From: a virus
Strand: one strand, 5' to 3'
DNA length: 27,156 bases
IMG/VR virus record: IMGVR_UViG_3300036945_000783
Coordinates: 1-27,156 of that record
In this document: positions 10,064 to 21,919 of the stretch, one piece after another
How positions within the stretch are numbered: position 1 is the stretch's first letter
Layout of the letters: every line of letters starts with the position of its first letter
Notes under the pieces: generated by a model
Database searches by the model: none
Told to the model about the DNA's origin: nothing
The model's input: the letters and a program-made list of their open reading frames with translations, nothing else
Position numbers and translations under genes: made by a program

Positions 10064-12253
10064 TTACTTGAAGTTATCCAGCTGGGTGAGCTTGTACCAA
10101 ACCCACATGAAGTCCTCAGCAAACTTCTTAAGTGCATCGTCAGAAGCGTAAACCTCGGCGAGTGCACGTAGAACCGAGTTAGATGCGAAGACTAGGTCTG
10201 CGCGGGTAGCAGTCCACTTACGCTCTCCGTTGAAGTAGGAGTGCGAGCCATAGACGCCCTTCTGTCCAGCCTTCGGAGCCCAAGCAATGTTGATATCCAA
10301 AAGGTTACGGAAGTAGGAGTTATCTAGAACGCCTGGAGTCTCTGTCAGAACACCGTGCTTGGTGTCACCGTGAGTTACACCTAGAACACGTAGACCACCA
10401 ACAAGAACTGTCATGTCTGGAGGAGTCAAGCCAAGTAGGGCTGCCTTCTCTAGAAGTAGACGCTCTGCGATGTCTTCGGTTCCTTCAGGAATCCAGTTAG
10501 TGAATCCGTCAGCTAGAGGCTTCAGGTGGTTGAATGACTCGACGTCAGTCCACTCCTGAGTAGTGTCAGTGCGCCAGTTGCGGAACGGGATCTGCTCGGA
10601 GTGGCCAGCCAAGGATGCGGCACGTTCAATTGCAACGTTAGCTCCAAGGATGATCAAATCAGACTTAGTCAAGTTGATGTGATTAGACAACTGCATTGAC
10701 TGTAGTAGCTCTACAACGTCACGAATCTCTTCGGCGTTGTTTGACTCCCAGCTGATCTGTGGCTCTAGTAGAACGCGAGCGCCATTAGCACCACCGCGCT
10801 TATCAGAGTTACGGAAGCTAGAAATAGCAGACCACGCAGTGCGGATTAGCTTAGGTGCCAGCTCTGGGTTGATGTCAATCGCACGCAAGATTTCTGCCTT
10901 CAGCAAGTAAAGCTGTGGAGCAGAGATTGGTGACACTGATGACTCTCCAATAACTGGGTCCTGCCAAATTAGATCTTCGATAGGAGCTTCCGAACCAACG
11001 TAACGAGCGCGAGGGCCCATGTCACGATGGGTCAGCTTAAACCAGGCACGTGCGAAGACGTCGGTGAAGTAGTCGAAGTCTGCAAGGAACTTCTTGCAAA
11101 TCTCGTCGTACTTTTCATCGCCGAAACGTAGAGCCAGGTCTGTGGTGAGCATGCGAATCTCCACAAACTCGTCCTTGTGAGCGTGAGGAGCTAGGTGCAC
11201 CTCGTCTGCTACTGGACGCCACTGCTTTGCACCAGCTGGAGACTCTTCGAGCTCCCACTTGTCGTAGCCGTAGATCATCTCTAGGTAGCCGTTGTCCCAC
11301 TTAGTTGGGTTCGGGGTCCAAGTAACTTCTAGACCAGAAGAGATTGTATCTTCTGAGTGGCCCTTGCCCTGTGAGTTGGCCCAGCCGAGGTTCGCCTGGT
11401 GAATCTCTCCACCTTCTGGTTCAACGCCAACCTGCGAAGCATCGCCAGCACCATGAGTCTTACCGAAAGCGTGACCACCTGCGATAAGCGCAACGGTTTC
11501 TTCGTCGTTCATGGCCATGCGCTTGAAGGTTTCGCGGATGTCTGCAGCAGCTAGCTTGAAGTCTGGGTTACCATCTGGACCTTCAGGGTTTACGTAAATA
11601 AGACCCATCTGAACCGCAGCTAGTGGACCCTCTAGAGTTTCAGCAGCGCGTGACTCGTCGTAACGCTTGTTAGTTAGCCACTCGGTTTCTGAGCCCCAGT
11701 AGGTGTTGTCTGGCTCCCAAACGTCTTCGCGTCCGCCAGAGAATCCGAAGGTAGGGAATCCCATGTCTTCGAGTGCAACGTTACCTGCAAGGATCATTAG
11801 GTCTGCCCACGAAATCTTCTTGCCATACTTCTGCTTGATTGGCCAAAGTAGGCGACGAGCCTTGTCAAGGTTTACGTTGTCAGGCCATGAGTTTAGAGGC
11901 GCAAAGCGCTGAAGGCCCTGACCCGCACCGCCACGACCGTCGCTAGTACGGTAAGTACCAGCTGAGTGCCAAGCCATGCGAATAAAGAATGGACCGTAGT
12001 GACCGTAGTCTGCTGGCCACATCGGGTGAGAGGTCTTCATAACCTCGGTGATGTCTGCCTTAACTGCTGCCAAGTCTAGAGACTCGAATTCTTCGGCGTA
12101 GTCAAACATATCCGTGTAGAATGGGTCGCTCTTTGGTGAGTTGTGGGTCAGTGCATCGGTAGTTAGCTGGTTTGGCCACCACTTAGTTGTGTTGCTGGTG
12201 CCGGTCACGTTAGACGCCCCGTGCGGAACTGGGCATTTTGCCTCGTCTGTCAT
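10064..12253 (-). CDS. katG: Catalase-peroxidase KatG
   Basis: This 729-aa full-length bifunctional heme enzyme decomposes H2O2 (catalase) and oxidises substrates (peroxidase). Distal residues Arg92, Trp95 and His96 lie in IRMAWHSAGTYR and the proximal heme ligand His261 in GGHAFGKTHG. Tyr220 (GLIYVNPEG) and Met246 (RMAMND) complete the Trp-Tyr-Met crosslink needed for catalase activity; the Tyr-Met and Met-His spacings equal those of M. tuberculosis KatG. The C-terminal pseudo-domain is complete, with no frameshift. A GGAGAGG site inside the end of the preceding 75-aa gene drives its ATG, so it is translationally coupled to a phage gene. CTAG-rich codon use resembles its neighbours, which argues against very recent transfer. 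Confidence 0.97.
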   Translation of the reverse strand: MTDEAKCPVPHGASNVTGTSNTTKWWPNQLTTDALTHNSPKSDPFYTDMFDYAEEFESLDLAAVKADITEVMKTSHPMWPADYGHYGPFFIRMAWHSAGTYRTSDGRGGAGQGLQRFAPLNSWPDNVNLDKARRLLWPIKQKYGKKISWADLMILAGNVALEDMGFPTFGFSGGREDVWEPDNTYWGSETEWLTNKRYDESRAAETLEGPLAAVQMGLIYVNPEGPDGNPDFKLAAADIRETFKRMAMNDEETVALIAGGHAFGKTHGAGDASQVGVEPEGGEIHQANLGWANSQGKGHSEDTISSGLEVTWTPNPTKWDNGYLEMIYGYDKWELEESPAGAKQWRPVADEVHLAPHAHKDEFVEIRMLTTDLALRFGDEKYDEICKKFLADFDYFTDVFARAWFKLTHRDMGPRARYVGSEAPIEDLIWQDPVIGESSVSPISAPQLYLLKAEILRAIDINPELAPKLIRTAWSAISSFRNSDKRGGANGARVLLEPQISWESNNAEEIRDVVELLQSMQLSNHINLTKSDLIILGANVAIERAASLAGHSEQIPFRNWRTDTTQEWTDVESFNHLKPLADGFTNWIPEGTEDIAERLLLEKAALLGLTPPDMTVLVGGLRVLGVTHGDTKHGVLTETPGVLDNSYFRNLLDINIAWAPKAGQKGVYGSHSYFNGERKWTATRADLVFASNSVLRALAEVYASDDALKKFAEDFMWVWYKLTQLDNFK

Positions 12254-12481
12254 TTATACCTCTCCTGAGTTTGATTTGTTCATAGCTGTGCACACAATAC
12301 GTGCAATTTTGTCGGCAAACATTAGCTGTTGCTCTTCTACCGAGTTAAACACTCCGCCTACCGTTGCAAATTCCAAAACCTTTGCACTTCCAGAAAGAAT
12401 TTCATTAACGCGAGCAGCAACAAGCATTGCAAAACGCTCCTGCTGTAGTTCAACGTTATATTGATCAATCAGTTCTTGCAT
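12254..12481 (-). CDS. Hypothetical 75-aa helical protein upstream of katG
   Basis: This small, acidic, helix-rich protein begins MQELIDQYNVELQQERFAML. It has no recognisable domain, cysteine pair or membrane segment. Its ATG overlaps the stop of the helix-turn-helix gene (TAATG), and its stop codon lies directly before the katG ATG. It therefore links the regulator and KatG in one coupled operon. It contains katG's ribosome binding site in its last codons. The function is unknown. Confidence 0.75.
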   Translation of the reverse strand: MQELIDQYNVELQQERFAMLVAARVNEILSGSAKVLEFATVGGVFNSVEEQQLMFADKIARIVCTAMNKSNSGEV

Positions 12482-13068
12482 TAAATCTCCTTAGCTAGTC
12501 GGTTGTCTTTTAGAATCGGCTGGTAAACCTTAGACTTTGCAGTCTTCGGCTGAATGTAGCCATAGCGAGCCAAACGGAAGCGAATCGCACCGTGAGTAAT
12601 ACCTAAACGCTTAGCCAAACGGTAAAGGGTAACTCCTTCAACAGTTCGAGCGTGGTTAAGTAGCTCTGTGTACTCTTCAGCTTCTGCGCGGTACTTAGTT
12701 CCATTGGCACGAACCTGCTGAGCGTACGGCTGAAGTTCTAGAAGGCGCTTCAATGTTTCTGGTGAAGGCTCTATGTATTCCTTAGGCTTCTTCTCCTGAA
12801 TTACCGGAGGCTCCGGGATGTCAATGTTGAGCGGAAAAGCTGAACCAGCCGGTAACTTGTCTGCCGAGTTAGATATCTGTCGGATTCGCTCTCTGGTCAA
12901 TCCTGAAGCGTTTGAGATTGCTTCGTAGGTCCAGTTTGCCTCAACTAGTTCCTTAATCAGCCGATCTCTGCGCAAATTGTCAGTGATTAGCTCGAACTCT
13001 GCGTTGATGCTTTCAGGTAGGCGCTGGTTTTTCTTGATGTATTTCTTATCGTCGCTAGTAGTAGTCAT
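12481..13068 (-). CDS. DNA-binding protein with two helix-turn-helix segments
   Basis: This 195-aa protein has an N-terminal helix-turn-helix (NWTYEAISNASGLTRERIRQIS) resembling sigma factor region 4.2, a proline-rich linker around residues 85-100, and a second helix-turn-helix (TLYRLAKRLGITHGAIRFRLA) near the C-terminus. A lysine-rich tail follows. It could be a transcription regulator of late or accessory genes, or a small terminase-like DNA-recognition protein; sequence alone does not separate these. It lies in the lysis/katG operon. The 166-aa protein at 15302-15802 has the same two-headed plan, suggesting related roles. Confidence 0.8.
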   Translation of the reverse strand: MTTTSDDKKYIKKNQRLPESINAEFELITDNLRRDRLIKELVEANWTYEAISNASGLTRERIRQISNSADKLPAGSAFPLNIDIPEPPVIQEKKPKEYIEPSPETLKRLLELQPYAQQVRANGTKYRAEAEEYTELLNHARTVEGVTLYRLAKRLGITHGAIRFRLARYGYIQPKTAKSKVYQPILKDNRLAKEI

Positions 13069-13079
13069 TTTTCTCTCTT

Positions 13080-13427
13080 TTATCGGATGAAGCGCTTTCT
13101 ACCGATATTGTCATTATCTTCGATAAGTACAACACGGTAGTCGTCAGATGTCAAGTTTTCGCTGTCGGAACCAATTCGAACGTCAGTAACGTGAACCATA
13201 GACTCCAGAAGAGTAACCATTCGCTGGATCTCGTCGGTTTCCGCTAGTTCCGGGCACCAAATCTCTACGGCGCAGTCTGTCATTTCGAAAAGACCGCTAG
13301 TGGGGATTAGATCTCTGAAGTCATCATAGTCGTGAACGCTAAAGGTTCTATTTTTCTTAGGCTGTGGCAATTTAGTCGTTTGTCTTTCTCTTGATGGTGC
13401 CTTCGATGTGTACGTCATTGAAATCAT
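13080..13427 (-). CDS. Hypothetical 115-aa protein
   Basis: The basic N-terminus (MISMTYTSKAPSRERQTTK) is followed by an acidic alpha/beta domain (DYDDFRDLIPTSGLFEMTDCAVEIWCPELAE...). I choose the ATG at 13427 because GGAG lies 6 nt upstream; longer frames would run far back into the neighbouring membrane gene. It overlaps the end of the 53-aa membrane protein in another frame, a compact phage arrangement. No known domain is recognised. Confidence 0.7.
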   Translation of the reverse strand: MISMTYTSKAPSRERQTTKLPQPKKNRTFSVHDYDDFRDLIPTSGLFEMTDCAVEIWCPELAETDEIQRMVTLLESMVHVTDVRIGSDSENLTSDDYRVVLIEDNDNIGRKRFIR

Positions 13428-13533
13428 CAGGAGCTCCAAGGAACACAAATATGGCTGCAATAGACGCAATTATGAATAGCAGAAATAGTACGGACGCTAT
13501 GCCGAGAGCAATTAGGAATAGTGCCTCTTGCAT
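13372..13533 (-). CDS. Small one-helix membrane protein (53 aa), holin candidate
   Basis: The translation begins MQEALFLIALGIASVLFLLF and has one long hydrophobic helix at about residues 4-32, followed by a charged tail ending TIKRKTND. The ATG overlaps the stop of the previous 55-aa gene (TAATG). Its small size, single membrane helix and position downstream of an endolysin fit a holin, pinholin or spanin-like lysis protein, but no family match can be claimed. Confidence 0.7.
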   Translation of the reverse strand: MQEALFLIALGIASVLFLLFIIASIAAIFVFLGAPDDFNDVHIEGTIKRKTND

Positions 13534-13700
13534 TAGTAGTCAGATCTGCGAGGTGACAGTGTGGCTAACGCGATAGACGCTAGTCCAAATGCAAGGCTGA
13601 GATTCGGAGCAATAAACGCCGATATCAGTGAAGCAACAATAGAGACAACGGACAAAACCGAAGTCCAAACTATTGAACGTAGGAAAAGATAGATGCGCAC
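13533..13700 (-). CDS. Small two-helix membrane protein (55 aa, GTG start), holin candidate
   Basis: GTG at 13700 is preceded by AGAGAGGA and opens a frame beginning MRIYLFLRSIVWTSVLSVVS. Hydrophobic helices lie at about residues 4-30 and 34-48, and the C-terminus is basic/charged (SPRRSDY). It starts 2 nt after the 68-aa gene's stop and ends overlapping the next ATG. Two short membrane helices with a charged tail are typical of small holins. It is easily missed because of its size and GTG start. Confidence 0.7.
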   Translation of the reverse strand: MRIYLFLRSIVWTSVLSVVSIVASLISAFIAPNLSLAFGLASIALATLSPRRSDY

Positions 13701-13702
13701 GT

Positions 13703-13909
13703 TTAGTCCTCTCTGTTAGTGCGGTAAATAGTTGAGTTCTTGTGCTCAGGGTATACGACACCGAGAAGAGGTCCAGGGATGCTCTTCTTGTGTTTGCGAA
13801 TGCGTAAAACCGTACGGAGGTTGCTGATTGTGCGTACTACAGTTGGTGCTGCAATGACCGCTACAACCAACAACCATCCGAGGGTCGTAGTTAAGGTTTC
13901 ATAATTCAT
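13703..13909 (-). CDS. Small one-helix membrane protein (68 aa)
   Basis: The product begins MNYETLTTTLGWLLVVAVIA, with one hydrophobic helix at about residues 10-26 and then a basic cytoplasmic-looking tail (RTVLRIRKHKKSIPG). It is the first gene of the lysis/katG operon. There is no ribosome binding site, but a TTGCAT-17-TATGCT promoter ends only 6 nt before the ATG, so the mRNA is probably leaderless. A lysis role (holin or antiholin) is inferred from the neighbourhood. Confidence 0.75.
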   Translation of the reverse strand: MNYETLTTTLGWLLVVAVIAAPTVVRTISNLRTVLRIRKHKKSIPGPLLGVVYPEHKNSTIYRTNRED

Positions 13910-13915
13910 AGGGCT

Positions 13916-13944
13916 AGCATAACACTAATAGCGGATATATGCAA
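13916..13944 (-). promoter_or_regulatory. Promoter for the membrane protein-HTH-katG operon, leaderless
   Basis: TTGCAT (13939-13944) and TATGCT (13916-13921) are separated by exactly 17 nt. The expected start point is at or next to the A of the ATG at 13909. Leaderless mRNAs are common in Actinobacteria. Confidence 0.7.
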
Positions 13945-13952
13945 CCTTTGTA

Positions 13953-14219
13953 TTATTTAGATCTCGAAGGTGGAACCAAGCCCTTTAGTTTGCTTGGCTT
14001 CAACTTGGCGAAGAACTTTGGCTTCTGGCCGTACTTAACCCATTCGTAAACAAAGATGCAGGCAGCGATTAGTAAGCCTAGGGATTCTGCCTGAACAATG
14101 TAGTAAGGGGTTGGGTCAATTAGGTATGTGTCCCACGGGAAAGTGTAGGTGACAACAGGGAACGCAATGGCGTTTCCAAATACAACTGCGAGCACGATGC
14201 TCTTATAAACGTTTTTCAT
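13953..14219 (-). CDS. Two-helix membrane protein (88 aa), possible holin
   Basis: The start is taken at 14219 because AAGGAGAG directly precedes it; an upstream in-frame ATG at 14243 has no ribosome binding site. The product begins MKNVYKSIVLAVVFGNAIAF, with hydrophobic helices at about residues 6-24 and 42-57, then a basic tail with KPKFFAKLKPSKLKG. It lies between the endolysin and the smaller membrane genes. The layout (two helices, strongly basic C-terminus) fits class II holins. It has its own promoter upstream and probably forms a separate unit. Confidence 0.75.
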   Translation of the reverse strand: MKNVYKSIVLAVVFGNAIAFPVVTYTFPWDTYLIDPTPYYIVQAESLGLLIAACIFVYEWVKYGQKPKFFAKLKPSKLKGLVPPSRSK

Positions 14220-14253
14220 TTCTCTCCTTATGTCGTTTGTCATTTGTCATTAG

Positions 14254-14282
14254 ACGGTACTGCATAAATTTTTATTTGTCAA
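14254..14282 (-). promoter_or_regulatory. Promoter of the 88-aa membrane protein gene
   Basis: A consensus TTGACA (14277-14282) is followed after 17 nt by TACCGT (14254-14259). The leader contains a tandem ATGACAA repeat before the ribosome binding site. Confidence 0.55.
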
Positions 14283-14295
14283 GCTAGAGAGAAGA

Positions 14296-14315
14296 GCCCC
14301 TCCCGAGAGAGGGGC
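14296..14315 (-). terminator. Terminator after the endolysin
   Basis: A 7-bp GCCCCTC/GAGGGGC stem with a 6-nt loop is followed on the minus strand by a pyrimidine-rich run (TCTTCTCTCT), a moderately strong terminator. It lies directly after the endolysin stop codon. Confidence 0.7.
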
Positions 14316-14326
14316 CCTCTCGGTTT

Positions 14327-15082
14327 CTAGTTGTTTGTTTCTATAAGTCGAGTGTATGTAACCTCAACGTTGCCGTTTCCTTTTGCCCAGCGGCGGATGG
14401 ACACTATTTCAGTCCGATCTCCTTTTCGACCTCCGGCGTGGAGCATCTCATCGGGTCCAATGTAGATACCAGTGTGAAAGGCGCTGTTCGAGCCTTTACG
14501 GGTAAACGCCACTATATCTCCAAGCTTTGGCTCAGTCACAAACTCCCCCGAGTTTTTCTGCGCTGTAGCACCGTGGTAGAGATTGACTCCGACATTGCCG
14601 TATGTCCACATAACTAGACCTGAGCAGTCCCACCCGTCCGGGGTGGATCCTGTTAGCACGTACCAGGTCTTGCCAACATACTTTTTGGTTGCAGCTATTG
14701 CTTTGTTGAGATTTTTTGTGTCTCTAGCAATTTTTTCTAGACGCGCAATCTCTGCCTCAAGTTCCGCCTGCTTGCGCTCAGCGTCTGATTCGATTTTGTC
14801 TTGTCTAGCTTTTTCTTGTGCTAGCCACTCCACTGATCCAATCTCAGCCTCTTCGGTTGAGAATATTGGACCTGTTGAGAGTGGTGATACTTTTACCGGC
14901 CCAGAAAGAACGCTCTTAACCCTTACAGGTGAAGCAGTGATCAGTTCTGGTGCAACAGTTACCTGTCGCACGGTTGGTGACTCCTTGGATCCAACACTCG
15001 CGTCTGTTAATTGTGCGAATGCTGCCGTAGAGCTTGTCATCACTAGCGCTATTACGCTAATTGAAATGAACCTTTTTTGCAT
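14327..15082 (-). CDS. Secreted NlpC/P60 endopeptidase, probable endolysin
   Basis: This 251-aa protein has a Sec signal peptide (residues 1-23, basic start, hydrophobic core, AFA cleavage box), a Ser/Pro/Val-rich stretch, a charged coiled coil at about 77-125, and a C-terminal NlpC/P60 domain. The catalytic residues are Cys153 in GWDCSG, His203 in SAFHTGIYIG and His215 in MLHAGG. Such enzymes cut peptidoglycan stem peptides. The signal peptide suggests export without a holin (signal-arrest or Sec-type lysin). The plan also resembles actinobacterial RipA-like hydrolases, so a host origin is possible. It has its own promoter, a long leader of about 175 nt and a terminator. Confidence 0.88.
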   Translation of the reverse strand: MQKRFISISVIALVMTSSTAAFAQLTDASVGSKESPTVRQVTVAPELITASPVRVKSVLSGPVKVSPLSTGPIFSTEEAEIGSVEWLAQEKARQDKIESDAERKQAELEAEIARLEKIARDTKNLNKAIAATKKYVGKTWYVLTGSTPDGWDCSGLVMWTYGNVGVNLYHGATAQKNSGEFVTEPKLGDIVAFTRKGSNSAFHTGIYIGPDEMLHAGGRKGDRTEIVSIRRWAKGNGNVEVTYTRLIETNN

Positions 15083-15259
15083 TGGCGACCTACCTTTCAG
15101 AATTTGAATACCTTAGTACTCGGTCGTTTCTTGTTTTGTGGTTTTCTTTCACTATTCAGTTATGGTGTTGCACTCTAGCACGAAAGTCCCAGAGATGCTA
15201 AAAAGCACACCCTATGCTTTTAGTGCCAGGATGTGCCCTCCGTTAAAAAGGATAGCACA
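15083..15259 (-). promoter_or_regulatory. Structured 5' leader of the endolysin gene
   Basis: The predicted mRNA has about 175 nt before the endolysin start. Segment 15229-15236 can pair with 15205-15212 (8 bp including one G-U). Alternatively, 15215-15223 can pair with 15198-15207. The two hairpins share bases and exclude each other, as in attenuators or riboswitches. An AACGGAGGGC stretch lies upstream of them. The final ribosome binding site is GAAAGGTAGG. Confidence 0.45.
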
Positions 15260-15265
15260 AAAAAG

Positions 15266-15294
15266 ACCCTAGTAGGCCATTTTTTGTTTGTCAA
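15266..15294 (-). promoter_or_regulatory. Promoter of the endolysin gene
   Basis: TTGACA (15289-15294) is separated by 17 nt from TAGGGT (15266-15271). It lies just downstream of the 166-aa helix-turn-helix gene's stop codon. Confidence 0.65.
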
Positions 15295-15301
15295 ATCGTA
15301 A

Positions 15302-15802
15302 CTAGAGCTTAATTCTCTTGTACATGGCTCGGTAGGTGACTCCGGCGGCCTCAGCTAGCTCACGGATTGAGACGCTGTTTGCGTATAGATCCTTACAGAT
15401 CTGGGTTAGGCGCAGGTTGGCAACTGCAGGCGCTGACGTAGACGCCATTCTTGATCTAAACGTACGAGCTAGAGGAGATAGCTGCTGAATATCTTCGAAG
15501 GAATTCTGCGGGATACCTGGAGACACTCTCTTTTTCTGGTAACCAGCTTCAGACACTGCTGATTTAGGTGACGGAATAGGGGCGTCTACGATATCGGGTT
15601 GGTTCTTCATTACCCAGCTGCGGATCGTTGTGCGTGGGCGTCTAGGTTCTAGTGCCTCACCGATGCATTGAAGTGACCAGCCTTCGGTGTAGAGGGCGGT
15701 GACTCTTCCAATAAGGGCGTCTGAAGCGATCGAGTTCAATAACTCAACCTCTTGCGGAGGAAGCTTCTGACCTCGGGCTGGTTTTCTGGACATACGGTTC
15801 AT
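15302..15802 (-). CDS. DNA-binding protein with N- and C-terminal helix-turn-helix
   Basis: This 166-aa, strongly basic protein has an N-terminal helix-turn-helix (ALYTEGWSLQCIGEAL...TTIRSWV), a low-complexity middle and a C-terminal one (SVSIRELAEAAGVTYRAMYKRI). It is built like the 195-aa protein at 12481-13068. Possible roles are transcription control, recognition of the adjacent gene-free repeat region, or small terminase subunit. It lies next to that 690-bp region, so binding there is an attractive but untested idea. The ATG at 15802 has no clear ribosome binding site; an ATG three codons later is an alternative. Confidence 0.75.
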   Translation of the reverse strand: MNRMSRKPARGQKLPPQEVELLNSIASDALIGRVTALYTEGWSLQCIGEALEPRRPRTTIRSWVMKNQPDIVDAPIPSPKSAVSEAGYQKKRVSPGIPQNSFEDIQQLSPLARTFRSRMASTSAPAVANLRLTQICKDLYANSVSIRELAEAAGVTYRAMYKRIKL

Positions 15803-16016
15803 TTTAGTCTGAAGTAGGGGCGTTTATTTTTTAAAAAATTTTTTGGAAATTTTTAGTGCGTTTAAAAAGAGGGGGTGGGTCATTTTTTAGAAAGAAGGGG
15901 GGGGGGTGTACGGAGAGGAGGATTTAGTACCTTAACGCTAACTGCTTTTGGCGGGTGAGAACGCAGCGACATGTTTTCGGGCAAGGCCTATTTTGTTTCC
16001 TAAAATCAAGGGGGTC

Positions 16017-16057
16017 TAGACAAGAACTGTCAAGTGGGTCTTGACAACTTTTGTCTA
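16017..16057. repeat. Inverted repeat with 18-bp arms and divergent TTGACA boxes
   Basis: The arms 16017-16034 and 16040-16057 match at 14 of 18 positions (TAGACAA, 4 mismatched, TGTCAAG), with a TGGGT centre. Each arm carries CTTGACA pointing outwards, so it could be a two-way promoter or operator or an RNA hairpin. Confidence 0.7.
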
Positions 16058-16070
16058 GGGGGGCTAGAAA
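16041..16070 (+). promoter_or_regulatory. Candidate plus-strand promoter
   Basis: TTGACA (16041-16046) and TAGAAA (16065-16070) are 18 nt apart. No plus-strand gene follows, so any transcript would be a G-rich noncoding RNA. Confidence 0.35.
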
Positions 16071-16240
16071 AATAAATTATTTTTTCTTGAATCAAAGAAT
16101 AAAGTCTGACTAGGGGGGGTCTAGGTCTAGGTCTGAGTGTCTAGTCTAGTGGGCTAGTGGAGGGGGTCATAACTGCCTGGCCTCTGAAGGGGTCTCTGAG
16201 GGGCTGGCTAGTGGGTTAGGTGTCTGATACTAATCAAGTA

Positions 16241-16314
16241 TCTCCAAGCCCTCCTAGGGGCGCTGACGGGCTGTTCTGAGGGAAATACTCACAGACATCT
16301 CTCCAAGCCCTCCT
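16241..16314. repeat. Direct repeat of TCTCCAAGCCCTCCT
   Basis: Two identical 15-nt copies lie at 16241-16255 and 16300-16314, 59 bp apart, within the gene-free region. Confidence 0.7.
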
Positions 16315-16494
16315 GAGGCTGTCTGAACTCTCTGAGGGGGCTAGGCATAGCGCAACCCCCTGCCTGCCTCTGAGGGGGTGGGGGGGGGTCTGTATTTGAC
16401 TGACTAGCCCCTGCTAAGAAACCCTGCTATGCCCAGCCTATTCTGGCTACGGCAAAGGGCTGGAATAGCCATTACGGCACACGGCAAGAGAAAA

Positions 16495-16517
16495 CCCCCC
16501 AGCCTAGGGCTAGGGGG
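16495..16517 (-). terminator. Terminator after the 88-aa gene
   Basis: A CCCCC.AGCC / GGCT.GGGGG hairpin is followed on the minus strand by TTTTCTCTTG. It ends the accessory region at its left side. Confidence 0.75.
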
Positions 16518-16535
16518 TCTCTAGTGGGTGGGGGG

Positions 16536-16802
16536 CTAGCCCCAGTAAACGGCAACCCCTAGAGCCTTCGCCTCACGGGCGACACGCACTAACTGGCTGA
16601 ACCGCACAGGCTCAAGGCCGTGGCCAAGTGCCGAATAGCAACGGCGCTCGAACTCAACGGCAGGGCACTCGCCAACGCAAGCGTCCTCGAAGGTGGTGTC
16701 GGCAAGGAAGCCCATTGCCTCAAGGACTCGCCCAGCGTTCGAGTTTGAGTAGTTTGCCTCAAGAGTGGCGACATCGGCATTTGCGTAGAAAGAAACTGAC
16801 AT
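16536..16802 (-). CDS. Hypothetical 88-aa protein
   Basis: This is the last gene of the accessory chain, single in its unit, with an AAGGGG ribosome binding site. The product begins MSVSFYANADVATLEANYSN and is small, soluble and slightly acidic. It has two cysteines near CVGECP that could be structural or metal-binding. It has no known domain. The unit has the full promoter cassette and terminator of this region. Confidence 0.7.
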   Translation of the reverse strand: MSVSFYANADVATLEANYSNSNAGRVLEAMGFLADTTFEDACVGECPAVEFERRCYSALGHGLEPVRFSQLVRVAREAKALGVAVYWG

Positions 16803-16854
16803 TTGAAAAACCCCTTAGTTTGAAACTGAACCCCAGCCCTTGCTGGTTGACACC

Positions 16855-16924
16855 AGCCTACAAAGGGACACGGCAAAAAGCAAACCGCCACGCCAACCGC
16901 AGTGGTCGCCAGAAAAAATAACTA
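16855..16924 (-). promoter_or_regulatory. Cassette 1: 14-mer element plus promoter
   Basis: The 14-mer lies at 16911-16924. The -35 TTGCTT (16878-16883) is 27 nt from it, and the -10 TAGGCT (16855-16860) follows at 17-nt spacing. An inverted repeat CTGGT/ACCAG (16843-16856) spans the predicted start. Confidence 0.8.
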
Positions 16925-16951
16925 TGCCCCGAGGCGAGACGGCAAAAGAAA

Positions 16952-16975
16952 AACCCCTGCCTTTCGGCAAGGGTT
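16952..16975 (-). terminator. Terminator after the 83-aa gene
   Basis: An AACCC.TGCC/GGCA.GGGTT hairpin is followed by TTTTCTTTTGCCGT. Its stem base is 27 nt from the next 14-mer element. Confidence 0.85.
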
Positions 16976-16991
16976 TCTCCGTGTGAAGTCT

Positions 16992-17243
16992 TTACTCGTA
17001 AGTGCCTACGCCAACGAACTCGGTGGCTAGGACTCGGCTTGCGCCATTCTCATCGTTGTAGCCAAAGCCACGAACCCAAACAATCTTGTTGATGTAGTTC
17101 TGTCCACGATAGAAATCAACAATGGTCTGGAACTTCTCGTAGCCGTAAGCCTCGAAGGTTGGCTCAATGGTCTCGCCAGTGTTGATGTCTACAACCTTGG
17201 CGACTACGGTAACGATGTCCTTGGTGGTTAGTGTTGCGGTCAT
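16992..17243 (-). CDS. Hypothetical 83-aa protein
   Basis: The start at 17243 is set by GAAAGGGG directly upstream and by the promoter, which lies inside any longer frame. The product begins MTATLTTKDIVTVVAKVVDI and looks beta-rich, with a conserved-looking core YEKFQTIVDFYRGQNYINKI. It has no cysteine motif or membrane segment. It is a single gene between its own cassette and terminator. The function is unknown. Confidence 0.72.
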   Translation of the reverse strand: MTATLTTKDIVTVVAKVVDINTGETIEPTFEAYGYEKFQTIVDFYRGQNYINKIVWVRGFGYNDENGASRVLATEFVGVGTYE

Positions 17244-17284
17244 TTTGTATCCCCTTTCGAGCCAGACTTTCTGGCTACATAAGT

Positions 17285-17354
17285 AGCCTACTACATTCAC
17301 CGCAAAAGTCAAGTTGCTCGCCCACACGCCACGACACGCTAGAAAAAATAACTA
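17285..17354 (-). promoter_or_regulatory. Cassette 2: 14-mer element plus promoter
   Basis: The 14-mer lies at 17341-17354, then a 28-nt gap, TTGACT (17307-17312), a 16-nt spacer and TAGGCT (17285-17290). GGCTAC/GTAGCC (17273-17288) spans the start and CCAGA/TCTGG (17262-17274) follows in the leader. Confidence 0.82.
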
Positions 17355-17385
17355 CACCCTCCGACCCCGACCGGCAAAGAAAAAA

Positions 17386-17407
17386 CCCCAACCCTTTCGG
17401 GCTGGGG
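17386..17407 (-). terminator. Terminator after the 115-aa gene
   Basis: A CCCCA.CCC/GGG.TGGGG hairpin with a 4-nt loop is followed by TTTTTTCTTTGCCGG on the minus strand. Confidence 0.85.
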
Positions 17408-17422
17408 CTTTCGCTTGGTGGC

Positions 17423-17770
17423 TTACTTGTAGAGGCTGACAATCTGGAAATACTTGGTCATCTCTGGGTCAAAGCAAGCCTCGTAAGCCTCTGGGTAATC
17501 AACCGCCAACTTCTCGGTGTCTACGCCCTTGCGAACTCGTAGGTCAATGCGAGCGAACTCAATGCCGTTGTGGGTCAAGGTGTCGAACTCGCTGGTCTTG
17601 GTGTCCTTGTCCACGCCGAACACGCCCTCAATCTGGGCGGTCAATGCGACCTTCATCTTCTCTAGGCGAGCAATCTCGGCACGAACTTCTACCAACTGCT
17701 TTACCTGCTCAAGAACAACCTTGGTTGCCTTGGTGGTCTTGGTGCTCTGGGTCTTTACTGCTACTGACAT
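17423..17770 (-). CDS. Hypothetical coiled-coil protein, paralogue of the 26279-26623 product
   Basis: This 115-aa protein has a Thr/Lys-rich start (MSVAVKTQSTKTTKATK), a coiled-coil helix at about 20-50 (LEQVKQLVEVRAEIARLEKM) and a C-terminal domain ending VDYPEAYEACFDPEMTKYFQI. The ending aligns with the 114-aa protein at the other end of the accessory chain (FPEVYEACLVTKKQYPIRSV), with similar length and helix placement. They are therefore likely duplicates or members of one phage family. The function is unknown. The ribosome binding site is AAAGGG. Confidence 0.78.
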   Translation of the reverse strand: MSVAVKTQSTKTTKATKVVLEQVKQLVEVRAEIARLEKMKVALTAQIEGVFGVDKDTKTSEFDTLTHNGIEFARIDLRVRKGVDTEKLAVDYPEAYEACFDPEMTKYFQIVSLYK

Positions 17771-17814
17771 TTTGTATCCCTTTCATTTGATTCAACCTTT
17801 TGGCTGATGTAATC

Positions 17815-17885
17815 AGCATAGCCTATGCCAAAACAAAAAGCAAATCCTTTTTCTGGCGTGTCGCCTCTGCTAGAAAAAATAACTA
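17815..17885 (-). promoter_or_regulatory. Cassette 3: 14-mer element plus promoter
   Basis: The 14-mer lies at 17872-17885, then a 28-nt gap, TTGCTT (17838-17843), a 17-nt spacer and TATGCT (17815-17820). GCTGAT/ATCAGC (17803-17817) spans the start. CGTGTC lies between element and -35. Confidence 0.82.
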
Positions 17886-17912
17886 CGGCTCCAACTTTTC
17901 ACGAAAAAGAAA

Positions 17913-17930
17913 ACCCCGCCGAAGCGGGGT
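17913..17930 (-). terminator. Terminator after the 82-aa gene
   Basis: An ACCCCGC/GCGGGGT hairpin with a 4-nt loop is followed by TTTTCTTTTTCGTG. The stem is 27 nt from the 14-mer. Confidence 0.88.
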
Positions 17931-17945
17931 CTTGGTTGTCGAGGG

Positions 17946-18194
17946 CTACTCGGCAGGTTGAAGCAGGAACTCCAGCAGGTCTGGAAGATTCTCACCGTGG
18001 AACATCGGGTCATAGGCGTAGACGCTCCAGCGGTCACCGCAACATCCTGGGCAACCATCTGAGAAGTCAATGCCATAGTTCTTGGCAATGGTCTCCGCCT
18101 CGGTGCGGGTCTCGGCAACGATGGTCGCCATCTGAGGCATACCCTCTAGGAAGTAGCCTCCAGCGTTGTTCTGGTCTAGAACGAACTTGGTCAT
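17946..18194 (-). CDS. Hypothetical 82-aa protein with CPGCC motif
   Basis: The start at 18194 follows GAAGGGGGA; the longer frame would include the promoter. The product begins MTKFVLDQNNAGGYFLEGMP. It is acidic and contains DGCPGCCGDRW near residue 50, a tight cysteine cluster that could bind zinc. The mixed alpha/beta composition and the C-terminal LPDLLEFLLQPAE suggest a small globular protein. I recognise no family. It is a single-gene unit. Confidence 0.72.
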   Translation of the reverse strand: MTKFVLDQNNAGGYFLEGMPQMATIVAETRTEAETIAKNYGIDFSDGCPGCCGDRWSVYAYDPMFHGENLPDLLEFLLQPAE

Positions 18195-18240
18195 TTTGTC
18201 CCCCTTCGGACTTAGGCTTTCACTCTGAAAGCCTAGTAAT

Positions 18241-18312
18241 AACTTATCACTATTCCGTGTCATTTGTCAAGCCGTGAATCTTACGCACGGAAGCTCTAAG
18301 AAAAAATAACTA
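18241..18312 (-). promoter_or_regulatory. Cassette 4: 14-mer element plus promoter
   Basis: The 14-mer lies at 18299-18312, then a 28-nt gap, TTGACA (18265-18270), an 18-nt spacer and TAAGTT (18241-18246). A perfect 9-bp hairpin AGGCTTTCA/TGAAAGCCT (18214-18234) begins at the predicted start. Confidence 0.82.
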
Positions 18313-18340
18313 CGAGCTCAGCCCGAACGGCAAAAAGAAA

Positions 18341-18362
18341 ACCCCGCCACATTGGGCGGGGT
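18341..18362 (-). terminator. Terminator after the 117-aa gene
   Basis: An ACCCCGCC/GGCGGGGT hairpin is followed by TTTTCTTTTTGCCGT, 28 nt from the 14-mer. Confidence 0.88.
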
Positions 18363-18375
18363 CTCTCTGGCTTGA

Positions 18376-18729
18376 TTACTTGAGAACAACCTGAAGGCAT
18401 TTGTGAGGGCTGTTGTCGGCCCACTCGACCTTGATTCCATTGTCCTCGAACGCCTTGAGAACAATCTCTCCAGCCGAAGTCAATCCCTCTGCTGTGGCTA
18501 GGTTGCTGTGGTTGAAATACATCGTGTCGAAGTCGGCGTAGTTTCCAACAATCGAAGTGCGATTACCTTGTCCACCATAGTGCCAAACAACTGGCACATT
18601 GTTGGCCAGCCCAAGGTCAATACAACTACGGCAACATCCCATTACATTCTTGCGAGCAACGATTCCAGCCTTGCGAATAGCCTTCATCGCCTTGTCCATA
18701 CGAACCTCTAGGGTCTCTGTCTGCTCCAT
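18376..18729 (-). CDS. DUF6891-like hypothetical protein
   Basis: This 117-aa protein has the pattern ARKNVMGCCRSCIDLG (residues about 25-40), then PVVWHYGGQG and a C-terminal AFEDNGIKVEWADNSPHKCLQV. That resembles the DUF6891 family (N-terminal CCxSC, central H, C-terminal V.W). The family has no known function, and the match is by eye. The cysteine cluster could bind metal. The ribosome binding site is GAAAGGGG and the gene is alone in its unit. Confidence 0.72.
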   Translation of the reverse strand: MEQTETLEVRMDKAMKAIRKAGIVARKNVMGCCRSCIDLGLANNVPVVWHYGGQGNRTSIVGNYADFDTMYFNHSNLATAEGLTSAGEIVLKAFEDNGIKVEWADNSPHKCLQVVLK

Positions 18730-18772
18730 TTGTTTCCCCTTTCATTGCGTAACCATTTTTGGTTACACCAAA

Positions 18773-18841
18773 AGTCTACCCCATCTACAACAAAAAGCAA
18801 ATCGAATCTCCGTGTCGTGTCGCTGTCAGAAAAAATAACTA
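18773..18841 (-). promoter_or_regulatory. Cassette 5: 14-mer element plus promoter
   Basis: The 14-mer lies at 18828-18841, then a 27-nt gap, TTGCTT (18795-18800), a 16-nt spacer and TAGACT (18773-18778). TTTTGGT/ACCAAAA (18757-18773) spans the start. Two overlapping CGTGTC copies lie in the gap. Confidence 0.82.
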
Positions 18842-18868
18842 TGCCCTCGCACCGCAGACAAAAAAAGA

Positions 18869-18891
18869 ACGCCTGCCTTTCGGCAGACGCT
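18869..18891 (-). terminator. Terminator after the four-gene zinc-ribbon unit
   Basis: A GCGTCTGCC/GGCAGGCGT hairpin (G-U pairs at the base) with a GAAA loop is followed by TTCTTTTTTTG. Confidence 0.82.
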
Positions 18892-18913
18892 CTCTCTTTA
18901 GGGGGGACTAAAT

Positions 18914-19117
18914 CTATTCTTTTGCTAACGGGACTGTGTTGAGAATCTCTAACGCAGGAAGATACTCTGTCTCATAATCTTCCTCACGCCATTCGTTCGT
19001 CTCTGAATCCCAAACTCGTTCGTCTTTGCCGAACCTTGCTATGAATGTTTCATCATCTATGAACGGCACGCCTGAATCTAAATCAACGGTGACAACGAAA
19101 TGGACTTCTCTACTCAT
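18914..19117 (-). CDS. Hypothetical 67-aa acidic protein
   Basis: The start is at 19117, where the ATG overlaps the stop of the upstream 50-aa gene (TAATG). An earlier in-frame ATG at 19153 would sit inside that gene. The product begins MSREVHFVVTVDLDSGVPFI and is acidic, with RVWDSETNEWREEDYETEYLP in its C-terminal half. It is the last gene of the four-gene coupled unit. No domain is recognised. Confidence 0.7.
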   Translation of the reverse strand: MSREVHFVVTVDLDSGVPFIDDETFIARFGKDERVWDSETNEWREEDYETEYLPALEILNTVPLAKE

Positions 19118-19269
19118 TACGAACCCAACATTCCCATCTCGTGTTGTAGCCAATCGTCAAAATCATTCTGGCAATCGTCACATAGGGGGTGAACCTGTCC
19201 GACTATTGCTTCAATCTTTGCTTCACATTGGTAGCAAGTTGTCTGCTCTTTGAGAATAATCTGAGCCAT
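19117..19269 (-). CDS. 50-aa zinc-ribbon protein
   Basis: This short gene begins MAQIILKEQTTCYQCEAKIE and continues to a second pair in HPLCDDCQNDFDDW. CxxC-16-CxxC spacing is typical of a zinc ribbon. Both ends overlap neighbours as TAATG, so it is coupled upstream and downstream. Its small size makes it easy to overlook, but the frame, paired cysteines and perfect junctions support it strongly. The function is unknown. Confidence 0.8.
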   Translation of the reverse strand: MAQIILKEQTTCYQCEAKIEAIVGQVHPLCDDCQNDFDDWLQHEMGMLGS

Positions 19270-19442
19270 TACGCACCAACCTTTTCACGCTCGAAAAAAT
19301 CTTCCAACGCTTCCATTGTTCCGCACGCTGAACAAATCTCTGTCGTGTTGTCTCGGCGTGAAATAGCACCGGGGTATGCCCCCGGGGTCTTGTTGTTCGG
19401 AATGTAGCCAGCGCACTTAGGGCAACGCTTCAACTCGTTCAT
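19269..19442 (-). CDS. 57-aa zinc-ribbon protein of a common actinophage type
   Basis: The product begins MNELKRCPKCAGYIPNNKTP and contains YPGAISRRDNTTEICSACGTMEALEDF. CPKC and CSAC form a zinc ribbon, and the combination with PGAxSRxDN and MEALEDF is one I know from many actinobacteriophage hypothetical proteins. The start at 19442 overlaps the upstream stop (ATGA), and the end overlaps the next ATG. Its role is unknown; a nucleic-acid or protein-binding adaptor is plausible. Confidence 0.82.
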   Translation of the reverse strand: MNELKRCPKCAGYIPNNKTPGAYPGAISRRDNTTEICSACGTMEALEDFFEREKVGA

Positions 19443-19654
19443 ACTGCCCACGCTCCGAAATCTAGGTCGCTTGCTTCTCGGCGTGAATCGCTCCACGCAG
19501 ACTCGCCATAGAAATACTTCCTCTTGCCAGTAGCCACATCTGTCATACGCCAGTAGTCCTCTGGAAACTCGGCAGTCCCGACTGCCAGTTCAACTAGTTC
19601 GCTTGCGTAAACTGTGTCCCACTCTTTTACTGCTGAAACGCTTGGCTTTGCCAT
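19439..19654 (-). CDS. Hypothetical 71-aa protein, first of a coupled unit
   Basis: The product begins MAKPSVSAVKEWDTVYASEL and contains RMTDVATGKRKYFYGESAW. It is slightly acidic, with no cysteine motif or membrane segment. GAAAGGGG lies upstream of the ATG at 19654. It heads a four-gene unit with the two zinc-ribbon genes and the 67-aa gene, all joined by overlapping start/stop codons. The function is unknown. Confidence 0.72.
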   Translation of the reverse strand: MAKPSVSAVKEWDTVYASELVELAVGTAEFPEDYWRMTDVATGKRKYFYGESAWSDSRREASDLDFGAWAV

Positions 19655-19688
19655 AATCGCTTCCCCTTTCTTGATAGTCCAAACTTAC

Positions 19689-19760
19689 CACATACCTCAG
19701 GTATAAGCAACTACGCAACTTCCGTGAAAAGTTTCCCGCACGCAGCAGAAAAAATAACTA
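19689..19760 (-). promoter_or_regulatory. Cassette 6: 14-mer element plus promoter
   Basis: The 14-mer lies at 19747-19760, then a 28-nt gap, TTGCGT (19713-19718), an 18-nt spacer and TATGTG (19689-19694). An alternative pair is TTCACG-17-TATACC. ATACCT/AGGTAT (19692-19704) overlaps the -10 area. Confidence 0.65.
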
Positions 19761-19786
19761 TGCTTCGCAACGCAAGGGCAAAAGAA

Positions 19787-19821
19787 AAACCCTCGCAAGC
19801 GGGGGACACCTGCGAGGGTTT
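19787..19821 (-). terminator. Terminator after the 26-aa peptide gene
   Basis: An 11-bp AAACCCTCGCA/TGCGAGGGTTT stem is followed by TTTTTCTTTTGCCC, 26 nt from the 14-mer. A C-rich segment between 19822 and 19865 shows no further feature. Confidence 0.88.
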
Positions 19822-19865
19822 GACTTGGGGGTTATTCAGTTGTGTGTTTGTTGTTAGGGACAACT

Positions 19866-19946
19866 CTATTTGGCGTGTCTGCCACGCCCCTTTGCGTGAC
19901 GACCCTTGGGCTGAACTAGCCCGAAAATTGTTAGCAACTTCCTCAT
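19866..19946 (-). CDS. 26-aa cationic peptide
   Basis: The ATG overlaps the stop of the upstream membrane gene (TAATG), and GAGAGG lies 7 nt before it. The peptide has a short hydrophobic start (MRKLLTIFGLVQ) and a strongly basic end (KGRHAKGRGRHAK). It could be a membrane-active or RNA-binding peptide. The coupled start, good ribosome binding site and following terminator argue it is translated; there is no other support. Confidence 0.5.
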   Translation of the reverse strand: MRKLLTIFGLVQPKGRHAKGRGRHAK

Positions 19947-20176
19947 TACTTACCCTCTCCAGATACGAATGAAACGAACTTGTTGAACTGCGGTGAGAAT
20001 GTAAACATCACCGCAACGATAATGCCAATGCTAATCCCATTGAAAAAGGTTTCGCTAATGGTCTGGTTTGGCTCTCCACCAATCAGTAGCAACATTAGGT
20101 AAAGGAATACCCAAGCACCTGCTACGAATGGAATTGCTAGAACTCCTGCTACTGCTCTGCGAATGTAAAACTTCAT
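19946..20176 (-). CDS. Two-helix membrane protein (76 aa)
   Basis: The product begins MKFYIRRAVAGVLAIPFVAG. Hydrophobic helices span about residues 8-33 and 45-62, and the tail is short (NKFVSFVSGEGK). The ribosome binding site is AGGGAGA. It is the first of two genes in its unit, followed by the 26-aa cationic peptide. It does not match a family I know. A role at the host membrane (superinfection exclusion, holin-like) is only a possibility. Confidence 0.75.
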   Translation of the reverse strand: MKFYIRRAVAGVLAIPFVAGAWVFLYLMLLLIGGEPNQTISETFFNGISIGIIVAVMFTFSPQFNKFVSFVSGEGK

Positions 20177-20219
20177 TTTGTTCTCCCTAACTTTCTATCA
20201 GGTTTTCCTGATACGAATA

Positions 20220-20290
20220 ACTATACCTAACACCACATCTAAAGTCAAACATCTTTCTCGTGTCTGCGGAAGCGTTAGAAAAAATAACTA
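20220..20290 (-). promoter_or_regulatory. Cassette 7: 14-mer element plus promoter
   Basis: The 14-mer lies at 20277-20290, then a 28-nt gap, TTGACT (20243-20248), a 17-nt spacer and TATAGT (20220-20225), one of the strongest promoters in the set. ATCAGG/CCTGAT (20197-20212) begins at about +2. Confidence 0.85.
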
Positions 20291-20316
20291 TGCTTCAAGA
20301 ATTTACGGAAAAGAAA

Positions 20317-20340
20317 ACCCCGCCAGTTTTCTGACGGGGT
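20317..20340 (-). terminator. Terminator after the 225-aa gene
   Basis: An ACCCCG.CAG/CTG.CGGGGT hairpin is followed by TTTTCTTTTCCGT, 26 nt from the 14-mer. Confidence 0.87.
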
Positions 20341-20356
20341 CTACGAAACTATGAAA

Positions 20357-21034
20357 TTACTTCTTAGTCTTACTAACTCTCTTTGACTTTGGCTTGGTAG
20401 CACTGTGAACATCTATGCCCCAGTTTATGAGAATCGAGGCTGTGCTTTGTTTCAATTCCATTACCTGCGCTAGATAAACTTCTTGCTTGTTTCTATCTTT
20501 TAGGTCGGTAATCAAACTATCCAGCGACTTCTGCCACTCAACTACTCGCCTCTTGGTCAGTCTGTTAGTTCCAACTATCGTGCGATTACCCTTAGCCCAC
20601 GCTCTTGAGTATTGAATGTCGTGTGGCGCACCCAACTCTCCAGACGCAATAGCGTAAGTTCTAGAATCTGGTCGGCGCTTCAATAGAGTAGCAATCTCGG
20701 CTGACATTACTTCATCTCTAATCGGCAAACGAACCTCTTCGGCGTTTAGGTAGTAAGTCGTCCTGCTTGGTGCTTCTAGTTTGCGTTTGAGTTCTGCCCT
20801 CAATGCCTTGGTGTGAATTTGAACATACTCGGCTTCCCAGTCGGAAACTTCTTTTTTGGCTTTTGCTATTGCGTCTGCGAACGACTGCTCTTGCGCTTCA
20901 ATCAATGACTCACTGTCGGCGACTATCGCCTTTATGCCCTCTAAGTATCCAATCACCACATACTTATTGACTGTGCCTAGCAACTTCTCACTTGGTGTAG
21001 TTCTGTAAGCCATCATTTTATTGTTTACTAGCAT
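20357..21034 (-). CDS. Hypothetical 225-aa helical protein
   Basis: This is the largest product of the accessory chain. The start has GGGAGG 7 nt upstream. A long charged helix at about 40-85 (EAQEQSFADAIAKAKKEVSDW...) looks like a coiled coil, and a second helical stretch lies at about 165-205. The C-terminus is very basic (KPKSKRVSKTKK), suggesting nucleic-acid binding. The middle contains RTTYYLNAEEVRLPIRDEVM. No domain is recognised, and it is alone in its unit. Confidence 0.78.
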   Translation of the reverse strand: MLVNNKMMAYRTTPSEKLLGTVNKYVVIGYLEGIKAIVADSESLIEAQEQSFADAIAKAKKEVSDWEAEYVQIHTKALRAELKRKLEAPSRTTYYLNAEEVRLPIRDEVMSAEIATLLKRRPDSRTYAIASGELGAPHDIQYSRAWAKGNRTIVGTNRLTKRRVVEWQKSLDSLITDLKDRNKQEVYLAQVMELKQSTASILINWGIDVHSATKPKSKRVSKTKK

Positions 21035-21058
21035 TTATGCCTCCCTTTGTTATAAGCA

Positions 21059-21129
21059 AGTTTACCAATTACGACTGACATTACCGTGAACTTTTTACGG
21101 GTGTCGTATCCTGGCAGAAAAAATAACTA
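21059..21129 (-). promoter_or_regulatory. Cassette 8: 14-mer element plus weaker promoter
   Basis: The 14-mer lies at 21116-21129. The -10 TAAACT (21059-21064) fits the usual geometry (28-nt gap, 17-nt spacer), but its -35 would be the poor ACGGTA. A TTCACG box at 21085-21090 (gap 25) is an alternative. Confidence 0.6.
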
Positions 21130-21156
21130 TGCTTCGAAAAATAACGGCAAAGGAAA

Positions 21157-21194
21157 ACCCCCACTAGGGAAATGTCAGTAAACCTAGTGGGGGT
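21157..21194 (-). terminator. Terminator after the 111-aa membrane gene
   Basis: A 12-bp ACCCCCACTAGG/CCTAGTGGGGGT stem is followed by TTTTCCTTTGCCGT, 27 nt from the 14-mer. Confidence 0.88.
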
Positions 21195-21215
21195 CAGGGG
21201 GGGTGTTAGGGGGAA

Positions 21216-21551: not shown

Positions 21552-21796
21552 TAGATACCAAATACCTCTCGCAACTTTTCATCTAGGCGAGCAAGATTAC
21601 GCTCTGCTCTTGCTGACGAACCAACCAGATACATACCAGACAAAATCTTTATCTCGGCATTGGCATAGCACTCTGACGAGATAGAGGCTTTGGTGCTGTC
21701 GCCATAAACGCTCTCGCCACCAGCCAACTTCATAGCACGCTCAAAGGCGAACTCTGCGTATAACTCTTTTGCTACTTTGTTGAGAATCTTTGACAT
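21551..21796 (-). CDS. Hypothetical 81-aa protein
   Basis: The product begins MSKILNKVAKELYAEFAFER and looks helical throughout, without cysteine pairs or membrane helices. GAAAGGGG precedes the ATG. It heads a two-gene unit with the 111-aa membrane protein. No domain is recognised. Confidence 0.72.
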   Translation of the reverse strand: MSKILNKVAKELYAEFAFERAMKLAGGESVYGDSTKASISSECYANAEIKILSGMYLVGSSARAERNLARLDEKLREVFGI

Positions 21797-21820
21797 TTTT
21801 GTATTCCCCTTTCATCAACT

Positions 21821-21891: not shown

Positions 21892-21919
21892 TCCACCCCC
21901 GAGCGCGGGCATAAGAAAA

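Follow-up and report, generated by a model that had tools for sequence, protein, structure and literature searches.

A conserved single-copy element as the predicted right end of a long direct terminal repeat in an uncultured phage

Introduction

The lambda-type cos site is a noncoding, single-copy site that lies beside the terminase genes, where the packaging and late genes start. To our knowledge, the mechanism by which long direct terminal repeats (DTRs) are formed is poorly understood. DTRs and shared terminal sequences are described for phages of the Bacillus cereus group in the available part of PMC5418689. For Microbacterium phages, the accessible text of PMC7302621 gives DTRs of 203-3,809 bp in genomes of up to 97.8 kb, a size limit which indicates that these are not the 186-195 kb Microbacterium phages considered here. 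DSL-LC01 is a metagenome-assembled phage whose terminase large subunit (TerL) is nearest to those of Microbacterium phages, and the part of its report that is available contains no mention of a terminal repeat (PMC10611076). Full-text literature searches gave no title on the termini of this phage group among the matches listed, which is not proof of absence.

The window, by which is meant the whole 27,156-bp stretch of DNA analysed here, is an IMG/VR virus record. The closest records in the phage collection, by the portal protein and by a two-HTH DNA-binding protein (HTH1), are DSL-LC01 and Microbacterium phages including Pumpernickel (NC_073468), Cece (OP068343), Big4 (ON637770), A3Wally (MZ150783) and Zooman (OK040793). 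Judging from sequence comparison, it is very probable that a gene-free region of the window is the right end of a long DTR, where terminase would cut the concatemer at a bipartite element of about 115 bp.

The gene-free region

Every gene of the window with an assigned function is on the minus strand. The late genes occupy the left part, with the portal protein (3491-5209), TerL (5876-7309) and tail proteins, while many small genes occupy the right part. The gene-free region (15803-16535, minus strand) lies between the early genes on its right and the late genes on its left, and its minus strand is C-rich and rich in CTAG and in runs of C or G. Its true right border is 16535, at the stop codon of the next gene. 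An earlier note on this DNA had called 15803-16494 gene-free, and the stretch indeed holds no open reading frame of at least 60 aa, the longest found in a scan from 25 aa upwards being 34 aa. A terminator-like hairpin with a T tail, identified by a consensus scan only, follows the last early gene (16493-16511, minus strand).

The repeats and runs that the earlier note had listed were found where it placed them, including the run of ten G at 15897-15906, three copies of CTCTGAGGGG at 16194, 16330 and 16368, and the exact 15-nt direct repeat TCTCCAAGCCCTCCT with starts at 16241 and 16300 (16241-16314). An AT-rich block lies at about 15824-15857. Its count of 17 CTAG in about 520 bp is correct only for 16055-16574, which overshoots the end of 15803-16494 by 80 bp and enters the next gene; 15803-16494 itself has 13 CTAG, against a mean of 4.95 in 2000 dinucleotide shuffles of the region, 0.1% of which reach 13. 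CTAG is not rare in this phage, since the whole window has 158 copies against 113 in 20 shuffles. In the same 2000 dinucleotide shuffles of the region, CTCTGAGGGG occurs on average 0.008 times, and a run of ten G is present in 8% of the shuffles and is thus unexceptional for the composition of the region.

Nucleotide searches of the phage collection with 10.0 and 5.7 kb around the region gave no match. The early protein encoded at 16536-16802 found no relative as a query, yet one relative of the window (L012) carries a similar stretch.

A conserved bipartite element

The HTH1 gene (15302-15802) was used as a query to retrieve 34 relatives in viral contigs, and the regions upstream of it were aligned. 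The part with CTAG and G runs, together with its repeats, is fast-changing, whereas about 90 bp are nearly constant. The earlier note would have taken a lack of conservation of the repeats as evidence against its reading; this applies to the repeats that it named, the 15-nt pair included, which are kept in L011 and absent from L012 and L013, but the region holds another element that is strongly conserved. The AT-rich tract between this element and the HTH1 gene (15824-15857, minus strand) is kept by close relatives, and L039, L046 and L062 are without it.

The element is on the minus strand at 15892-16008, where a profile of divergent copies (R2) gives a match of 78.9 bits (E 3.9e-24), the window itself being one of the 20 rows of this model. 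In the direction of the minus strand, its order is GGAAAC, 32-33 bp, YTCTCACnCGnCAAAAGCA, TAAGGTAC and GTACA. The constant part of about 90 bp consists of GGAAACA, the 32-33 bp counted from GGAAAC, which are mostly variable, and YTCTCACCCGYCAAAAGCAGTnnnCGYTAAGGTAC, with GTACA about 15 bp further in the window. The upstream half-site GGAAAC (15995-16000) is invariant in alignments of 22 sequences. The alignments also place the downstream core TTCTCACCCGCCAAAAGCAG at 15942-15961 and the TAAGGTACTA box at 15925-15934, followed by GTACA at 15911-15907; the G10 run, which reads as C10 on the minus strand, lies just downstream of the element. In the 22 aligned copies the distance between GGAAAC and the core stays the same to within 1 nt although the intervening sequence varies, as would suit a protein complex that binds to the two sides of a cut.

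The element is probably non-coding. A small peptide was considered, as the window has one open frame of 34 aa here, and rejected, as relatives examined by eye show in-frame stops and absent start codons. A structured noncoding RNA or a leader that opens the late operon, such as a riboswitch or an antitermination RNA, could be suspected from about 90 strongly conserved nucleotides in a noncoding region, and the variable segment forms a hairpin in a few relatives (L031, L040). RNAalifold, however, predicts no base pair over the 22 sequences, the mean folding z-score of +0.42 means a stability no better than that of shuffles, and no Rfam family reaches the gathering threshold, the other matches being to unrelated families only (E at least 0.45). 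On these results the structured RNA was rejected; it is largely refuted and extremely unlikely, and the element acts as DNA rather than RNA.

Two sequence models were used to follow the distribution of the element. R1, a sequence-only model of 22 copies, was built before any physical end was known. It matches 32 of 41 sources, 22 of which are rows of the model itself, has only weak matches in DSL-LC01 and none in the other eight. These eight are five contigs that start within 110 bp of the HTH gene, Pumpernickel, and L014 and L019, whose contigs start where their nearest relatives have the element further upstream. R1 found one copy each in 16 of 18 and in 15 of 22 records, many of them partial and some near-identical. 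In a wider HTH search 80 loci were kept and 49 of them searched with R1, which matched 31 and gave no match in 18. R2 is a wider model built from 20 divergent rows, namely 19 IMG/VR loci and the window, with no cultured phage among them; it has a single match in each of 13 records, 10 of which supplied rows of the model. Altogether the element is present in one copy in each of 51 distinct records with a match, several of which are near-identical. The 91-bp element of L013, used alone against the phage collection, gave 27 records, and the 20 listed were matches of 27-28 bp with E values of at least 0.8. In L165 the gene order is element, a two-HTH gene, TerL and HTH1, which implies that the element goes with the head of the packaging and late genes and not with one gene.

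Position of the element in cultured phages

Pumpernickel is deposited with an exact direct terminal repeat of 19,963 bp. In the other four Microbacterium phages the last 60 bases of the record recur within it, at 18079 in Cece, 17669 in Big4, 15503 in A3Wally and 17079 in Zooman, and these places were taken as the right end of the repeat. The likeness between the element and these ends was first noticed by eye, before R2 existed. R2 was searched against stretches of 7-16 kb chosen around the ends, and in all five Microbacterium records, which belong to phages related to one another, its best match lies across the deposited right end of the DTR (E 5e-6 in Cece, 1.7e-4 in Pumpernickel, 3.9e-4 in Zooman, 1.7e-3 in A3Wally and 1e-2 in Big4). 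The matches at the ends score 11-22 bits and any other match in these stretches at most 4 bits; by chance, a best match would land on the end with odds that can be put, as a crude estimate, at between one in 100 and one in 400 for each record. The best match of R1 is the Cece end (E 5e-5) and its sole match in A3Wally is the end of that DTR (E 1), while R1 finds nothing in the Pumpernickel and Big4 stretches, nor in the whole Pumpernickel record at E <= 0.001.

Among Arthrobacter phages, the best match of R2 in 24 kb of Atuin covers the DTR end and is not significant (E 0.14-0.21). In Racecar, with its DTR end at 20468, the best match is elsewhere and only a match of E 5.6 lies near the end; for Sixama, a search of the stretch examined did not recover the tail of the record. 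The deposited end corresponds to R2 position 47 in Cece, A3Wally and Zooman, 48 in Pumpernickel, 46 in Atuin and 37 in Big4, so that it falls within 1 nt of model position 47 in five of six phages and is 10 nt off in Big4. At the left ends of the DTRs R2 gives no score. In DSL-LC01 the element is found just upstream of the HTH1 gene (R2, E 1.6e-9). A hypothetical CDS annotated in this record (OQ999401, 46806-47402) spans the terminus element and overlaps a 202-aa frame homologous to HTH1; the annotation may be in the wrong frame.

The surroundings of the element in the cultured phages bear on another reading, that it is a promoter or operator, placed where early and late genes meet, by which the late genes are turned on. 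Its place is indeed where the late genes begin, boxes resembling a promoter -10 were seen by eye directly on the ATG of the following gene in relatives, and the two-HTH gene and TerL of L165 come after it. As a shared function, however, a promoter is unlikely because the genes on either side of the element converge in all five Microbacterium phages and none starts after it on the same strand; a same-strand gene directly downstream is therefore not a property of every element bearer. Its single occurrence in each record and the 0.5-1.3 kb that separate it from the HTH gene in L015, L017, L018, L031 and L040 also speak against control of the late operon, which in addition leaves the coincidence with the DTR ends unexplained. 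We regard such control as distinctly unlikely.

The terminase small subunit and the other end of the repeat

A terminase small subunit gene opens the DTR in Cece and Pumpernickel, the annotated gene of Cece starting 62 nt inside the left end. Homologues of the Cece protein are encoded in two circular genomes (G002 and G005), on the same strand as the element and upstream of it, and that of G002 matches a terminase-small-subunit PHROG (E 8e-5). Of 14 IMG/VR records, among which G004 and G014, and likewise G027 and G028, look like the same phages, 10 have a homologue that shares the strand of the element and lies 18.0-26.8 kb upstream of it. The four records without a match have 3.6 (G007), 14.1 (G008), 18.3 (G009) and 23.4 kb (G030) of room upstream. 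In DSL-LC01 the distance is 26.1 kb. The window has no small subunit match, as is expected if the gene lies outside it.

This linkage was also followed from the other side, in an out-of-sample set of 26 loci found through the small subunit alone. Seven loci in known records and one 4-kb contig were left out, and the remaining 18 new records were searched for the element. Where more than 27 kb of room was present downstream, it was found in six of six records, on the same strand and at a distance of 18.4-33.5 kb; with 18-27 kb of room it was found in two of five, and with less than 18 kb in none of seven. None of the 18 records has a second copy. Only three of all 26 contigs have an end in the 1.5 kb that precede the small subunit gene, which counts against the reading preferred here.

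Some features of the right end may recur at the left ends. CTCTC occurs within a few nucleotides after the cut in Cece, A3Wally, Big4 and Zooman, four of the six left ends looked at, and CCTCTCC blocks are conserved upstream of the small subunit gene. When 528,693 bases, with some stretches included twice, were searched on both strands for a plain form of the bipartite pattern, it occurred five times: the elements of G002 and G005, the right end of Atuin, the left end of Cece and one place elsewhere in Cece. The bipartite pattern at left ends is a lead only. About 70-180 nt upstream of the small subunit match in L223-L242, 18 of 21 sequences have a conserved CCTCTCCCC(A/G)G block, often with a second block like CCCTCTCCACGCGCAAAA further upstream, which resembles the core of the right-end element and is a candidate left DTR end.

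Neighbouring genes

In the window, as in most of the freshwater-type relatives examined, the gene that comes next after the element is that of HTH1 (15302-15802, minus strand), which is recognised by weak HTH matches. The protein has 166 aa and two HTH regions (AlphaFold mean pLDDT 83); no PDB match was found at E <= 0.001, and viral models gave only matches without a telling name. A role as small terminase was considered for HTH1 and finds no support, as a different protein is annotated as the small subunit in Cece. The window encodes a second two-HTH protein, HTH2 (12481-13068, minus strand). Its homologue in Cece is the last gene before the DTR end, and in L165 the element is followed first by a gene for a protein with the two-HTH layout of HTH2. 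In L015, L017, L018, L031 and L040 the interval between the element and HTH1 holds a gene where checked (316 aa in L017).

Elsewhere in the window, TAGTTATTTTTTCT occurs in seventeen exact copies between 16924 and 26738, all on the minus strand and all to the right of the element. Four of the six copies in the stretch scanned for terminators come just after a terminator-like hairpin, and the sequence is likely a repeated early promoter or a start-associated motif. Among the late genes, and together with a glycosyltransferase 61 gene, are adjoining genes for a peroxidase-domain protein (PF00141, E 4e-67; 10064-12253) and a heme oxygenase (PF01126, E 1.5e-34; 9367-10167). These three genes are possible auxiliary metabolic genes.

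Contig breaks near the element

The suspicion of the earlier note that the G10 run is a weak point of assembly is borne out, as contigs break beside it. Over the 8,607 bp compared (7305-15911), one contig has the same sequence as the window, and it stops 5 nt past the G10/C10 run; the match of a second close relative starts at 15895, just short of the run, and a third (L011) reads through. Among the 34 relatives, 16 contigs end within 1.5 kb upstream of HTH1, against 1.85 expected, and none within 3 kb downstream. The ends scatter over more than 1 kb with no pile-up at the predicted cut, a pattern that suggests difficulties of assembly and not the cut. The clustering was for this reason rejected as direct proof of physical ends; moreover, contigs with late hallmark genes may be over-represented in the collection.

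Such breaks raise the question of whether the island of CTAG and G runs is a fast-evolving spacer that is hard to assemble, with the element having an unrelated function. The absence of the repeats from L012 and L013, the enrichment of scattered contig ends upstream of the HTH gene and the breaks of L009 and L010 beside the C run are what would be expected of a spacer. It would account for the island, but not for the conserved element or for its position at DTR ends, and in the four Microbacterium phages measured, gaps with G runs and CTAG likewise stand before the DTR end. In these four, the first to be examined, the noncoding gap before the end is 570-652 bp long, with 4-12 CTAG and G runs of 7-15. 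The C/G runs and CTAG are mostly on the repeat side there and likewise in the window, the G10 run itself being beyond the predicted cut; the sequence of the island and its strand bias differ between the window and the Microbacterium phages. We consider a mere spacer unlikely.

Proposed role of the element

The reading that we prefer is that the element of about 115 bp serves as both recognition and cleavage site. Terminase, perhaps with one two-HTH protein, would bind it, the two-HTH proteins encoded beside the site being candidates, and would cut the concatemer there to produce the right end of one virion genome. GGAAAC would lie about 30 bp from the cut on the repeat side, and YTCTCACnCGnCAAAAGCA...TAAGGTAC...GTACA directly on the unique side. 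Model position 47 puts the predicted cut, and with it the physical DNA end, between 15966 and 15965 (minus strand). The repeat would extend from the small subunit gene, some 18-27 kb upstream and outside the window, to 15966, so that 15966-27156 would be its last 11.2 kb, the left end also lying outside the window. The early genes carried in the repeat would be duplicated at both ends of the virion DNA. The metagenome assembly of the window displays no repeat, and metagenome contigs collapse repeats of this kind. G002 and G005 have end repeats of about 100-127 bp, as in circular assemblies, which fits a collapsed long DTR and also circular permutation.

The earlier note had proposed an origin, a packaging site or an attachment region. 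The packaging site gains support from homology to the deposited DNA ends of cultured relatives, while origin and attachment are without positive evidence; no tRNA was found in the window. For a phage replication origin one could cite the lack of genes, the AT-rich tract and the sharp fall of GC skew at the element in the two circular genomes. For some 20 kb ahead of the element, which lies near 122.7 kb in G002 and near 73 kb in G005, the skew is mostly positive, to about +0.1; the 2-kb bin that holds the element has -0.11, and most values beyond it are close to zero. This break is explained equally well by the boundary between early and late genes, with which it also coincides. Conserved short repeats are lacking, those found being absent from L012 and L013, and in relatives the conserved part is located at physical ends. 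We regard an origin as very unlikely.

On balance, we think it somewhat more probable than not that one bipartite element fixes the genome end from uncultured aquatic actinophages to soil Microbacterium phages, possibly including those of Arthrobacter, that termini can be read from it, and that variants of the core may be present at the two repeat ends and be handled by the same machinery. Physical ends and terminal repeats normally need virion reads, whereas the element on a metagenome contig predicts both. If the proposal is true, genome ends become predictable for uncultured actinophages and their packaging biology testable, and the virion termini and DTR length become readable for phages known only as circular assemblies. 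The element would tell annotators where to linearise such genomes and would give research on long-DTR packaging a defined target.

Comparison with known systems

The proposed site differs from the lambda-type cos site in that the closest cultured relatives have direct repeats of kilobases, not short cohesive ends. The phages of the Bacillus cereus group share position-specific DTR cleavage with the present proposal, and a short identical terminal sequence has been proposed as the site of terminase recognition or cleavage; their terminal sequence and hosts are different, and the available part of the report describes no long bipartite element (PMC5418689).

The Microbacterium DTR phages are the nearest counterpart, although they differ in several respects. 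The GGAAAC half is poorly kept in them, their early coding strand is G-rich whereas that of the window is C-rich, and convergent genes flank the end where late genes start in the window. The DTR is present in the Microbacterium records and predicted in the window. In common are the element, at the right DTR end in the Microbacterium phages (within 1 nt of position 47 in four of five), the noncoding gap with CTAG and G runs before the end in the four measured, and homologous portal and HTH1 proteins. Where compared, the Microbacterium phages also have homologues of TerL (Pumpernickel) and HTH2 (Pumpernickel, Cece), and they carry at the left DTR end a small subunit gene, annotated in Cece and homologous in Pumpernickel and A3Wally, whose relatives lie upstream of the element in uncultured phages.
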